This document shows, piece after piece, positions 11,643 to 52,675 of a DNA stretch of 64,000 nucleotides. The DNA is taken from assembly GCA_000690595.2 (NCBI GenBank), contig JHUT02000009.1:62001-126000 (forward strand), in the 5' to 3' direction. Origin of the DNA: Natrinema mahii (GTDB taxonomy: Archaea; Halobacteriota; Halobacteria; Halobacteriales; Natrialbaceae). The notes under the pieces were generated by a model. That model did no database searches. It was not told the origin of the DNA and worked only from the letters and a program-made list of their open reading frames with translations. Position 1 is the first letter of the stretch. Each line of letters begins with the position of its first letter. The position numbers and the translations under genes were made by a program.

Positions 11643-11647
11643 GTGGA

Positions 11648-11692
11648 GTAGCCACTGTCAGTCACCGTGTACCCGATCACACGACAGCCATT
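11648..11692. repeat. Partial palindromic element (left end)
   Basis: A stretch starting AGTAGCCACTGTCAGTCAC and running through a CGATCACACGACAGC-like core matches the left half of the full elements at 26844, 33590 and 43362. The right half is not recognisable here; a matching right end lies at 12389, beyond the next gene. Confidence 0.55.
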
Positions 11693-11777
11693 GCGATTGC
11701 GACAGTGACAACGAGAGGATGCTGCTAGCAACAAGCGTTATGTATCAACACCGCTGATATTCACACTGTACAGGGGG

Positions 11778-12388: not shown

Positions 12389-12418
12389 CGGTGTGTCAAT
12401 CGGTTCAGTGGGGACTAG
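12389..12418. repeat. Partial palindromic element (right end)
   Basis: CGGTGTGTCAATCGGTTCAG followed by TGGGGACTA matches the right half of the full element at 43362 (GGTGTGTAAATCGGTTCAAG then AGCTACTA). The left half is missing at this place. Together with 11648 it brackets the wHTH gene. Confidence 0.55.
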
Positions 12419-12584: not shown

Positions 12585-13691
12585 ATGTTCAGGGATATCG
12601 CTACCGGCTTCGGGGTTTTATTTATCATGGCCGGAGCGGTGCTACTCGCCGGTCCCGTCTACGGATTCACATCCATGGCTGCCGACCGCGGCGTCGGCAT
12701 GCAAACGGCAACCGGAGAGGACGCGTATCTCGGCGTCGTCCCGAGCGACAGTGCGATCGACGGGCCGGACGAGGAAGTCGACATCGCCACACTCACGAAC
12801 AATCTCGAGTCGGACGTCACCACTCTCGAGATTGATGTCGCCTTTTCGAGCGGGGGTGACGACCTCGAGACCACCGTTCCCGAAACGATCGGCACTGACG
12901 GCACCGAGTCGGTTCTCGTCACGTGTAACAACCGCGGCGGTTCACGGGGGTCCGAGACGACGACCGTCACCGTGGCCGTCGAAAAAGCGGTCGCCGACGG
13001 TGTGACGGTTACGGACGTCACGGTACAGAGTGAACTCACCTACGAGTGTAATCCCGGAGGGGGTGGCGGACCACCGGGTGGGGGCGGACCGGGGAACGGC
13101 GGAGCCACCATCGGTAGTGGCGAAGTCAGAAACGGCGACGTCAACAACGATGGAGACGTCGCTTCGGGATGGAACTCCGAGGTCACCGGCGATGTCGACG
13201 CGGGCGGTGACGTGTCGACGGGGTCCTCGAGTACCGTCGGTGGCGACATCGATGCAGACGGCACCGTGACCACGGGCTGGGACTCCGAGATCGGCGGCGA
13301 CGTGACGGCCGGCGATGACGTGTCGACGGGGAGTTCAAGTACCATCGGCGGCGACATCGATACGGACGGGTCCGTGACCACAGGCTGGAGTTCCGAGGTC
13401 GGCGGCGATATAACAGCCGGCGGGGACGTGACGACGGGAGGTTCGAGTACGGTCGACGGTGAAATCACCGCGGACGGAACCGTCGAAACCGGCTGGGACT
13501 CCGAGGTCGGAGACGACATCACTGCGGACGGCGACGTCGTTATCGGCGGGGATAGCACGATCGGCGGCGATATTACCGCCGAGGGGGACGTAGTGGTCGA
13601 ATGGGGGGCAGTGATTGAAGGTGATATCGACGCCGACGGCACGACTGCGATCTCGGATGGCGCAGTGGTTGAAGGCGACATCAACGGGTAA
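12585..13691 (+). CDS. Secreted bactofilin-like beta-helix protein with 18-residue repeats
   Basis: This 368-residue protein has an N-terminal hydrophobic segment (about 5-28), then GFTSMAADRGVGMQTATGED, echoing the ADR motif of the neighbouring exoproteins, and a beta-rich domain with one short cysteine pair up to about 155. A glycine/proline linker (GGGGGPPGGGGPG) joins it to about ten tandem 18-residue repeats from about 183 to the end. The repeats alternate between a tryptophan type (TTGWDSEIGGDVTAG) and a serine type (STGSSSTIGGDIDAD). GDI/GDV-rich repeats of this length fit a right-handed beta-helix as in bactofilins (DUF583), which polymerise without nucleotide. Bactofilins are normally cytosolic; here the protein appears exported. 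Confidence 0.82.
   Translation: MFRDIATGFGVLFIMAGAVLLAGPVYGFTSMAADRGVGMQTATGEDAYLGVVPSDSAIDGPDEEVDIATLTNNLESDVTTLEIDVAFSSGGDDLETTVPETIGTDGTESVLVTCNNRGGSRGSETTTVTVAVEKAVADGVTVTDVTVQSELTYECNPGGGGGPPGGGGPGNGGATIGSGEVRNGDVNNDGDVASGWNSEVTGDVDAGGDVSTGSSSTVGGDIDADGTVTTGWDSEIGGDVTAGDDVSTGSSSTIGGDIDTDGSVTTGWSSEVGGDITAGGDVTTGGSSTVDGEITADGTVETGWDSEVGDDITADGDVVIGGDSTIGGDITAEGDVVVEWGAVIEGDIDADGTTAISDGAVVEGDING
13128..13690 (+). repeat. 54-bp coding repeats of the bactofilin-like protein
   Basis: About ten units of 54 bp, encoding 18 residues each, alternate between two sequence types so that the strongest similarity recurs every 108 bp. The alternation suggests growth by duplication of a two-unit block. 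The last two units are the most divergent. Confidence 0.8.
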
Positions 13692-26381: not shown

Positions 26382-26858
26382 ATGACCGAGTTCCGCGGCG
26401 CGTGGGACGAAGACGACGTCGAAGCGTTCCTTCAGGAGGCGACCATCCCGATCCGGCTCGCGACCCACAGGCCCGACGGGTCGCTGTGGCCGGTCGCGCT
26501 ATGGTATCGTTACCGCGACGGTGCCCTCGAGTGTGCGACGGGTGCGAACGCCGACGTCGTTCGGTTCCTCCGCCGCGAGCCGGCGGTCGGCTTCGATATC
26601 TCGACGAACGACGTTCCCTACCGCGGGATCAGGGGAACCGGCACCGTCGAGATCGCGCCCGACGAGGACAAGGCCGTCCTCCGGTCGCTGATCGAGCGGT
26701 ATCTCGACGATACGGACTCGCCGCTGGCGACGAAACTGCTCGACGACGACCGCGAGGAGGTCCGCGTTCGGATCGAGCCCCGGGAGATCTACAGCTGGGA
26801 CTACAGCGCGCGGATGGGGCGGGGAGCGGGAGAAGACACGGCCAATAGTCGCCGCTGA
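26382..26858 (+). CDS. Pyridoxamine 5'-phosphate oxidase-fold protein
   Basis: This 158-residue protein has the split beta-barrel of flavin/F420-binding PPOX proteins: IPIRLATHRPDGSLWPVALWYRY, YRGIRGTGTVEI and VRIEPREIYSWDYS. Such proteins bind FMN or F420. The last residues ANSRR and the stop codon come from a palindromic mobile element that starts at 26844, so the natural end may be lost. The start MTEFRGAW fits a coding pattern preceded by GC-poor sequence. Confidence 0.85.
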   Translation: MTEFRGAWDEDDVEAFLQEATIPIRLATHRPDGSLWPVALWYRYRDGALECATGANADVVRFLRREPAVGFDISTNDVPYRGIRGTGTVEIAPDEDKAVLRSLIERYLDDTDSPLATKLLDDDREEVRVRIEPREIYSWDYSARMGRGAGEDTANSRR

Positions 26859-26927
26859 CAGTCATTGCACACCTGATCGCACGACAGTGTTTCGATTAGG
26901 GTGTGAATCGTTTCAGCGACTTCGATA
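26844..26927. mobile_element. Palindromic MITE-like element, degenerate copy 1
   Basis: An 84-bp element with imperfect terminal inverted repeats (AATAGTCGCCGCTGA at the left, TTTCAGCGACTTCGATA at the right) and the family core (CATTGCACACCTGATCGCAC ... GGTGTGAATCG). The two halves are roughly inverted copies of each other. It has no coding capacity. It runs into the 3' end of the PPOX gene. Confidence 0.7.
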
Positions 26928-27024
26928 CGCGGGCTCGCGGCCGATCGTCGATCGGGGAAAACGGCGCTCGAGTCGCCTCGAACCCACCTCGAACTGGGTC
27001 GCGTCGATTCGAGGGCGCGGCGGC

Positions 27025-33422: not shown

Positions 33423-33589
33423 TCCCGATTTCCAGTGCGTTGGAGGCGGGGCCGTCGACAGTCACTCGCGGAGACGATCGACCGTCGCCAGTGGGAGACT
33501 CACTCGAGGGGATAGCAGTACCACGACGGTCTCGAAGAAGTCACGCGTACTCGACTGACCCACCGTTTGGGTCGTCACGTCCGACGTAC

Positions 33590-33672
33590 TATAGTAGCCA
33601 CTGAAACGATTCACACACTGATCGCAACGCTGTCGTGCGATTCGGTGTGCAATGACGTTCAGTGGCTACTAT
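33590..33672. mobile_element. Palindromic MITE-like element, copy 2
   Basis: An 83-bp palindrome bounded by ATAGTAGCCACTGAA and TTCAGTGGCTACTAT (perfect 15-bp terminal repeats), with the core GATTCACACACTGATCGCA and its roughly inverted partner TGCGATTCGGTGTGCAATGA. A TA flanks the left end; the right flank is TC, so the duplicated site has changed. No coding capacity is present. Confidence 0.8.
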
Positions 33673-33677
33673 CGGAG

Positions 33678-33841
33678 ATGGACGCCGAGCGCTGGTGGCC
33701 CCCCTTCGTCGAGATCGTGGCCCTCGCGTGGATCGCCCTGTTCGTCGTCGACATCGCGACCGGCTTCGATCTCCTCGTCGTCTCCGACTCGTTCGCGGCG
33801 ACGGTTCGCGGCGTCCTCCATCGTTTCAGCGGCTACTATAG
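33678..33841 (+). pseudogene. Truncated membrane-protein gene cut off by a palindromic element end
   Basis: A frame starting MDAERWWPPFVEIVALAWIA encodes one clear helix (about 10-30) and 50 plausible residues, then runs into the right-end sequence of a palindromic element (TCGTTTCAGC GGCTACTATAG at 33821-33841), after which the frame is no longer protein-like. The sequence resembles the first helix of channel-like membrane proteins, but too little remains to name it. It was probably shortened when the elements arrived or recombined. Confidence 0.45.
33821..33841. repeat. Solo right end of a palindromic element
   Basis: TCGTTTCAGC and GGCTACTATAG match the right ends of the full elements, with no left half nearby other than copy 2 at 33590. 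It may be the scar of a deletion between two copies. Confidence 0.6.
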
Positions 33842-34449: not shown

Positions 34450-35507
34450 TATAGTAGACGTTAGAAATAATTGCTCACATTTGGCACAGAGATCTGATCA
34501 ATAGCTGTATCGATCGCTGTTGTGAGGTCGTTGAGTGAGTCAAAGAAACGATTGCTGAGTGCCGCTTGGAGCTGTCTCCAGCACTCTTCGACGGGATTGA
34601 GCTCTGGCGAGTACGCCGGCAATGTCACGAAGGCGAGATCGTCACGGGACGCTAGGTCCGTGACGGTCGACGCCCGAAAATACGGCGCTCCATCCAACAC
34701 AATAATCAAGTCATCTTCGAGCTCTTTGCATAATGCGAGAATGAAATGTCTTGCGTGATCGGCGGTAACGTACTCTTCAAACCGAGCGAAAAAGCGATCA
34801 CCGTTCTCGGTGATCGTGCCTAAGAGACACGTCCAGTCGCGTTGTCCGGACAGTTCAACAGACGGTTGCGTGCCGCGCGGAAACCACGCGGCACGCGGCT
34901 CAACTTGGACGGATTTCTTGGTTTGATCGATACAGACTACTGTGGCGTCCATTTCCCGTCGCTTTTTTTGAGTTCTTCGCGGAACGCTTCTTGTTCCTCA
35001 GCCTCGGATTCGGCGGCTGTACGGCGTGGTTTTTGATAGCTCAATCCCGCTTCTTTGAGCAACCGCCGGCAACTCGGATAGGAGTACTCGACGCCGTAGG
35101 TTTCGTCGAGGTACTGCTGGACGAGCGCCGACGTCCACGCCGGCGCGTCGATCCCGACTTTCTCGGGAGGTTCGTGAACGGTTTGTTCGAACTCTTCTTG
35201 CTGTCTTTCTGAGAGCTTTCGTTTTCTCCCGGATCGATGAGCATCAGAAACGGCTTGCTCAAGCGGTTCGTCCGTATCGAGTCGCATGAGCCAACTGTAG
35301 ATTGTTCTTCGACCAGTGTCGTGTCATTCTGCAAGTTCGGTCTGAGTCACGCCGTTCTTGTACGCAATCGCCGCTAACAACCGTTGTGTCGGCTTAGCTC
35401 CCTCAACCCTGGCAAGGGCGTCTTGGAGTTCTTCGACGGAGGTTTTGTCGAGATGGTCCATTGTCTACAGCAACAATCTACGGGCGGAAATTCTAATGGT
35501 TACTATA
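34450..35507 (-). mobile_element. IS630-family insertion sequence
   Basis: The element spans imperfect inverted ends (TATAGTAGACGTTAGAAA at the left; TTCTAATGGTTACTATA at the right, about 15 of 19 positions matching) and is flanked by TA, the usual target of the IS630/Tc1 group. It holds one transposase gene on the minus strand in two frames. The outer octamer TATAGTAG is shared with the palindromic elements in this window. Confidence 0.82.
34461..35461 (-). pseudogene. IS630-family transposase, interrupted by a stop codon and a frame change
   Basis: The gene starts ATG at 35461 (MDHLDKTSVEELQDALARVE) and encodes a helix-turn-helix (QTELAE, then HDTGRRTIYSWLMRL), but a TGA at 35324-35326 stands where the family has tryptophan (TGG). 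The second part reads on to 34937 in the same frame; the DDE part (34461-34952) lies in the -1 frame, with Asp in VVCIDQTK, Asp in IIVLDGAPYF and Glu in NPVEECW. A run of seven A on the coding strand (34963-34969) lies in the overlap, a likely slippage site as in many IS630 members. The stop codon means this copy is probably inactive. Confidence 0.85.
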
Positions 35508-35699
35508 GCTGTGACTTCTCGAAGTGTCTTAGACACCGTGAAAGTGGAGGAATCGTACGGTAAATCGATGGCCTCGGCACTCATAGGGCTCGTCACCACC
35601 GGGTGCCGAGTCCGGTTCGGAGCGAGTGGATCGTCATCGGCCACGCATTCCTACACCCGTCGCTCCAAAGACGGTTTGGATTAGGGTTCGCTCGAGCGA

Positions 35700-43361: not shown

Positions 43362-43447
43362 CTATAGTAGCTCTTGAAAGTCACTGCACACCCGACCGCA
43401 GGACAGCGTTGTGATCGGTGTGTAAATCGGTTCAAGAGCTACTATAG
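43362..43447. mobile_element. Palindromic MITE-like element, copy 3 (best preserved)
   Basis: An 86-bp element with perfect 17-bp terminal repeats (CTATAGTAGCTCTTGAA and TTCAAGAGCTACTATAG). The core (CACTGCACACCCGACCGCAG ... TGATCGGTGTGTAAATCGG) is roughly inverted as in the other copies. TA flanks both sides, as expected for a TA target duplication. It is inserted in the broken gene at 43147. Confidence 0.85.
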
Positions 43448-52598: not shown

Positions 52599-52675
52599 CG
52601 AAATTTTGCTCTGCGTTCTGAGCGGACGGATGCGCCGACAGCGCATCCGTCCGCTCGTCACTCGGCAAAATTTCG
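52599..52675. terminator. Nested inverted repeats after engB
   Basis: A perfect 16-bp stem (52620-52635 with 52641-52656, loop CGACA) lies inside an 11-bp outer repeat (CGAAATTTTGC at 52599-52609 and GCAAAATTTCG at 52665-52675). This directly follows the engB stop. It could end transcripts from engB and the opposite-strand dehydrogenase, or be a mobile repeat; no T-tract is present. Confidence 0.55.

Follow-up and report, generated by a model that had tools for sequence, protein, structure and literature searches.

The window, as we call the whole 64-kb stretch of Natrinema mahii DNA that was analysed, has a GC content of 66% and carries, beside an IS630-family element whose relatives are annotated as ISNpe3 and ISNma7, three full-length and three partial copies of a short palindromic MITE (Table 1). 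These were called by reading the sequence and with a covariance model of 31 copies, applied to the whole window with no filters. A sequence-only reading had placed copies near 26844, 33590 and 43362, all of which the model recovered at full length, and partial copies near 11648, 12389 and 33821, which are backed by blastn at E values of 1.8e-6 to 0.001. The 43362 copy is built as C + TA + 80-bp core + TA + G, and its TA duplication can be seen; at one end of the 33589 copy CGATAG replaces CTATAG, and the earlier description of the family as TA-flanked fails for the decayed copy at 26843, the outer ends of which are CAATAGTCG and TTCGATAC.

Table 1. Features of the MITE family and of the IS630 element in the window
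Feature	Position	Strand	Evidence
Partial MITE (left part)	11647..11697	+	blastn 78% over 51 bp, E 1.8e-6
Partial MITE (right end)	12391..12417	+	blastn 85% over 27 bp, E 0.001
Full-length MITE copy, decayed and with mutated ends	26843..26928	+	covariance model 70.1 bits, E 2.6e-15
Full MITE copy, CCA/TGG arm type	33589..33674	-	covariance model 94.8 bits, E 1.3e-21
Partial MITE (right end)	33820..33841	+	blastn 22/22, E 5e-5
IS630-family element, ISNpe3/ISNma7 group, 1058 bp	34450..35507	-	ends, length; DDE_3 E 1.3e-38, HTH_33
IS630 transposase ORF B (DDE_3 domain)	34461..34952	-	ORF and domain match
IS630 transposase ORF A (winged-helix part), broken	34937..35461	-	stop codon at 35324-35326
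Full MITE copy, CTC/GAG arm type	43362..43447	+	covariance model 102 bits, E 2e-23; relatives without insert
Duplicated TA, left copy	43363..43364	.	insert-free relatives and nine further sites in the genome
Duplicated TA, right copy	43445..43446	.	insert-free relatives and nine further sites in the genome

The two best copies of the window measure 84 bp from TATA to TATA and have arms of 15–17 bp; the terminal repeats are indeed perfect over 17 bp at 43362, as had been claimed, and the arms of the 33590 copy are near-perfect. An inner stem lies around CACACC-GATCGCA / TGCGATC-GTGTG, and the whole element folds as one long hairpin, with z values against shuffles of -8.3, -8.6 and -3.1 for the three full copies of the window (plus strand). 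The consensus is an 80-bp core, TAGTAGCNN(C/T)TGAAA ... TTTCA(A/G)NNGCTACTA, forming a long imperfect hairpin, in which each arm consists of a terminal TATAGTA, variable positions 10-12 and an inner (C/T)TGAAA motif, the MITE-type ends being TATAGTAGCNNCTGAAA. The element is thus a MITE in being short, non-coding and bounded by 17-bp terminal inverted repeats. Outside Natrinema the left end is TATAGTAGCCACT and the right end TATAGTAACAACT in 27 of 43 MITEs, and the copies of Haloarcula and Halomicrobium have the same G/A asymmetry, with ATTGAAA replacing ACTGAAA.

The weak matches of the covariance model in the window are GC-rich hairpins and not MITE copies. Positions 52599-52675 hold a nested inverted repeat of another kind (CGAAATTTTGC ... 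GCAAAATTTCG), which matches the MITE model weakly, and positions 13133-13537 three direct repeats in register, 70-75% alike at a spacing of 108 bp. The MITE matches no family in an Rfam scan of the window, where the sole above-threshold match, lying elsewhere, is the box C/D RNA sR-tMet (71.6 bits, 35570-35642, minus strand), at a distance of ~60 bp from where the IS630 element ends.

Target sites, abundance and spread

At the 43362 locus G075, a relative, has GGGCTGGGGTCGGCG in place of the window's GGGCTA, 80-bp core and TAGGGGCGGCG; the matches of a second relative, G064, are likewise contiguous without the insert. A conserved coding stretch (GGCGATGAACCC..., on to a stop) spans the site in these relatives, so that the copy, judged by this reading frame, appears to occupy the 3' end of a gene. 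When the joined flanks of other copies in the same genome (G000) were used as queries against G064, G065 and G075, nine more loci (L002, L004, L006, L008, L014, L016, L018, L023 and L025) aligned across the junction with a single TA, except for L004, which has CA in its place. In total, ten loci compared with insert-free relatives differ by one clean 80-bp insertion with the TA duplicated, which bears out the duplication that the sequence-only reading had expected from aligned flanks. Because of these clean insertions at ten sites, the MITE is a true mobile element, multi-copy and target-duplicating.

The target is more specific than TA itself. CTAG stands at six of the nine further insert-free sites in at least one relative, and 174 of 252 distinct MITE insertions are flanked by C and G, when only 1.2% of the TA steps of the window fall in CTAG. 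This tetranucleotide occurs 14 times in the 64 kb, against the ~60 expected from trinucleotides; its targeting therefore means that the MITE lands on a tetranucleotide avoided by this genome. At one further locus (L038 ~1908-1993; contig C14, 60907-60992) the MITE sits exactly at the TA (CTA AAT) of an IS630 transposase relic, the upstream part of which is missing.

The genome-wide count that the same reading had proposed comes to at least 128 distinct sites for this genome (31-copy covariance model, E <= 0.1), and blast with one MITE copy as query finds at least ~40. Contig C14 is enriched, with 15 sites in 79.6 kb where 2.7 are expected. Across the family the MITE occurs in 106 of 125 genomes, belonging to 26 of 29 genera, when the best candidates, up to 35 per genome, are scored, with Natrinema, Natronorubrum, Natrialba, Natronococcus, Haloterrigena and Halostella among the carriers; it is also present in the Haloarculaceae, on Haloarcula and Halomicrobium plasmids. 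No match was found in the phage records and viral contigs searched. It is, then, a very abundant mobile element of Natrialbaceae, of which no description was found in the literature searched. Of 20 copies sampled in N. ejinorense (G060), with a bias towards high-scoring ones, 10 have one and the same 84-bp sequence.

Draft scaffolds need some care in such counts. In seven of them (L313, L322, L353, L334, L096, L098 and L115) the same MITE or IS end stands on either side of an N, so that copy counts would be inflated; the apparent tandem MITEs in the N. thermotolerans and Natrialba hulunbeirensis records and the nested IS ends in L096, L098 and L115 are scaffolding duplicates of this kind. Three true tandem dimers of different copies (L276, L277 and L278) have one shared CTATAG or CGATCG at their junction. 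Simple TA insertion, one copy after the other, predicts a further TA there, and this counts against the preferred reading set out below.

The IS630 element and the candidate transposase

The stop in ORF A of the IS630 element is absent from another copy in the same genome (contig C2), which is apparently intact; the copy of the window therefore looks dead. Its ends are TATAGTAG at one side and TATAGTAA at the other, so that the outer octamer, earlier said to be the same as that of the MITE, is shared at one end only. In 32 copies of the ISNpe3/ISNma7 group the ends are invariant at positions 1-4, 7 and 12-16, nearly so at 5 and 6, and variable at 8-11, and this pattern (conserved 1-7 and 12-16, variable 8-11) is much like the MITE arm with its variable positions 10-12. 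The TA target claimed for the element also holds, with C and G flanks (CTAG) in 28 of the 32 copies. The 3' end TATAGTAG and the 5' end TATAGTAAC differ by the same G/A as the ends of the MITEs outside Natrinema. The inner end motif, on the other hand, is TTAGAA in all 32 copies examined, none of which has an inner motif of the (C/T)TGAAA type. Other IS630 groups (those of G049, G034 and G064, and the relatives of the G060 relic) were considered as a source of the ends and rejected, their ends being unrelated or not recognisable.

An IS630-type transposase acting in trans most likely mobilises the MITE, the best evidence, circumstantial as it is, being the likeness of the ends, their asymmetry and the CTAG target. 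The proposal that the IS630 transposase group moves these elements can thus be retained as regards the similar ends, TA and CTAG, whereas the copy of the window and its close group are poor candidates for the current mobiliser: against the window copy stand its TTAGAA in place of (C/T)TGAAA, its nonsense codon and the existence of MITE-rich genomes free of DDE_3. The comparison of the ends is likewise divided, TATAGTA, the asymmetry and the target being shared, the inner motif differing. Pfam searches for DDE_3 found nothing in the MITE-rich G051, G052, G061 (one contig), G063, G065, G075 and G097, each with at least 34 or at least 35 MITE matches, and N. ejinorense (three contigs), likewise rich in MITEs, has a single DDE_3 relic of another subgroup; the IS-rich G055 has 29 IS matches against five MITEs.

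We consider it probable that the MITE, a non-autonomous DNA transposon, was moved in trans by an ISNpe3/ISNma7-type transposase that has since been lost in several genomes, and that its arms are copied on the hairpin. A DDE transposase of this type would recognise both ends of the MITE, its signal being the terminal TATAGTA together with the inner motif, with a tolerated variable spacer in between, and would insert the element at TA, preferably inside CTAG, giving CTA[core]TAG with the TA duplicated. In genomes free of the transposase, the copies may have been spread by an enzyme since lost or visiting on plasmids.

In another reading, a resident unrelated enzyme, some other transposase or a domesticated one retained by the MITE-rich genomes, moves the MITE, and the likeness of its ends to IS630 is convergent. 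The expansion looks recent where there is no intact DDE_3 gene, 22 genomes with at least 20 MITE matches have none to this IS group at E 1e-10, and the inner end motifs differ. Such convergence would, however, have to account at once for the terminal heptamer, the left/right asymmetry and the unusual CTAG target common to the MITE and the IS630 group, and no other gene was found between such ends in G060 or G065, which makes this unlikely. A longer element with MITE ends was sought in these two genomes and none was found: the perfect ends (52 in G060 and 61 in G065) all belong to ~84-bp units, decayed forms or remnants, and around one solo end in G065 there is no transposase. There is a small chance, too, that in Natrinema the MITE owes its spread to an unrecognised resident enzyme and not to IS630, with its arms actively homogenised on the hairpin; if so, its ends would drift and yet stay palindromic, evolving as one unit, independent of the source transposon.

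Co-variation of the arms

Among 68 aligned copies, 94.2% of the pair cells are standard pairs and 11 of 31 pairs have double changes, counts that are inflated by kinship among the copies and are not a number of independent events. The observed values are not reached in any of 500 shuffles, and sliding the partner by 1–3 columns lowers every measure. The arms are identical at positions 7-13 in 92 of 142 unique Natrinema copies, in several types, of which CCA/TGG, CCG/CGG, CAA/TTG and CTC/GAG are dominant, and position 4 of the terminal octamer has gone from an A-T to a C-G pair in eight unique copies. Arms and inner stem of the MITE thus vary in concert. The arms of the IS elements, by contrast, lie 1 kb apart and are identical at positions 8-11 in only 2 of 32 copies.

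A possible cause is that the MITE arms, only ~50 bp apart in the hairpin, pass their changes on to each other by copying, whether through template switching or hairpin repair, or through exchange between inverted copies. Such copying or exchange would explain the co-variation without selection on structure. Were the hairpin instead kept for a function, as an RNA hairpin, a terminator or a protein-binding cruciform, with mobility secondary, the double changes in both outer and inner stems, the paired replacement of A-T by C-G within the terminal octamer of eight unique copies and the very stable fold would all be expected of structural selection. The insertions are nevertheless scattered and missing from orthologous sites, one of them coincides with a reading frame's 3' end, mismatched arm positions are kept in the form common outside Natrinema, and no Rfam family is matched, so that we regard selection for such a function as very unlikely. 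Palindromes arisen by chance, or common descent of intergenic DNA, with no inserted element at all, would accommodate the decayed state of some copies and nothing more; in the face of E values down to 2e-23, at least 128 sites and ten insert-free orthologous sites, this has next to no probability. The family provides a clean archaeal example of a MITE that has expanded in the absence of its transposase. It also lends itself to a natural test between selection and copying as what maintains the likeness of inverted-repeat arms ~50 bp from each other.

Comparison with known systems

A literature search on the MITE family, on ISNpe3 and on haloarchaeal IS630 MITEs found nothing specific, the main archaeal insertion-sequence review lying outside its coverage. 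Identity with PATE or IS605-type elements, which have no terminal inverted repeats, is excluded by the 17-bp repeats of the MITE. Like the MITEs and SMRs of Haloquadratum walsbyi, the element is transposase-free, short, abundant and bounded by terminal inverted repeats, and some of the MITEs of that archaeon have moved though no functional transposase remains (PMC3119063). SMRs, however, leave their target unduplicated, and their ends resemble those of no transposon, so that the duplicated TA and the IS630-like ends exclude identity with them. ERIC and Correia elements are also short, with terminal inverted repeats, TA ends and target duplication (PMC2229807), but are bacterial and of other sequences. 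The ISNpe3/ISNma7 group itself shares the terminal TATAGTA, the left/right asymmetry of the ends and the CTAG/TA target, and differs as a 1058-bp autonomous element with a TTAGAA inner motif and arms unmatched at positions 8-11.

The closest system in kind is RUP of Streptococcus pneumoniae, which is thought to be moved by IS630-Spn1 (PMC2229807, PMC3049150). The likeness lies in a non-coding element of ~100 bp in ~100 copies, with IS630-like terminal inverted repeats and a TA target, often found near IS elements (PMC2229807, PMC3049150). Unlike RUP, the MITE resides in an archaeal host, has an 80-bp core and a strong CTAG target, and shows arms and inner stem that co-vary, and its nearest IS630 element differs in the inner motif and is absent from many of the genomes that carry it.
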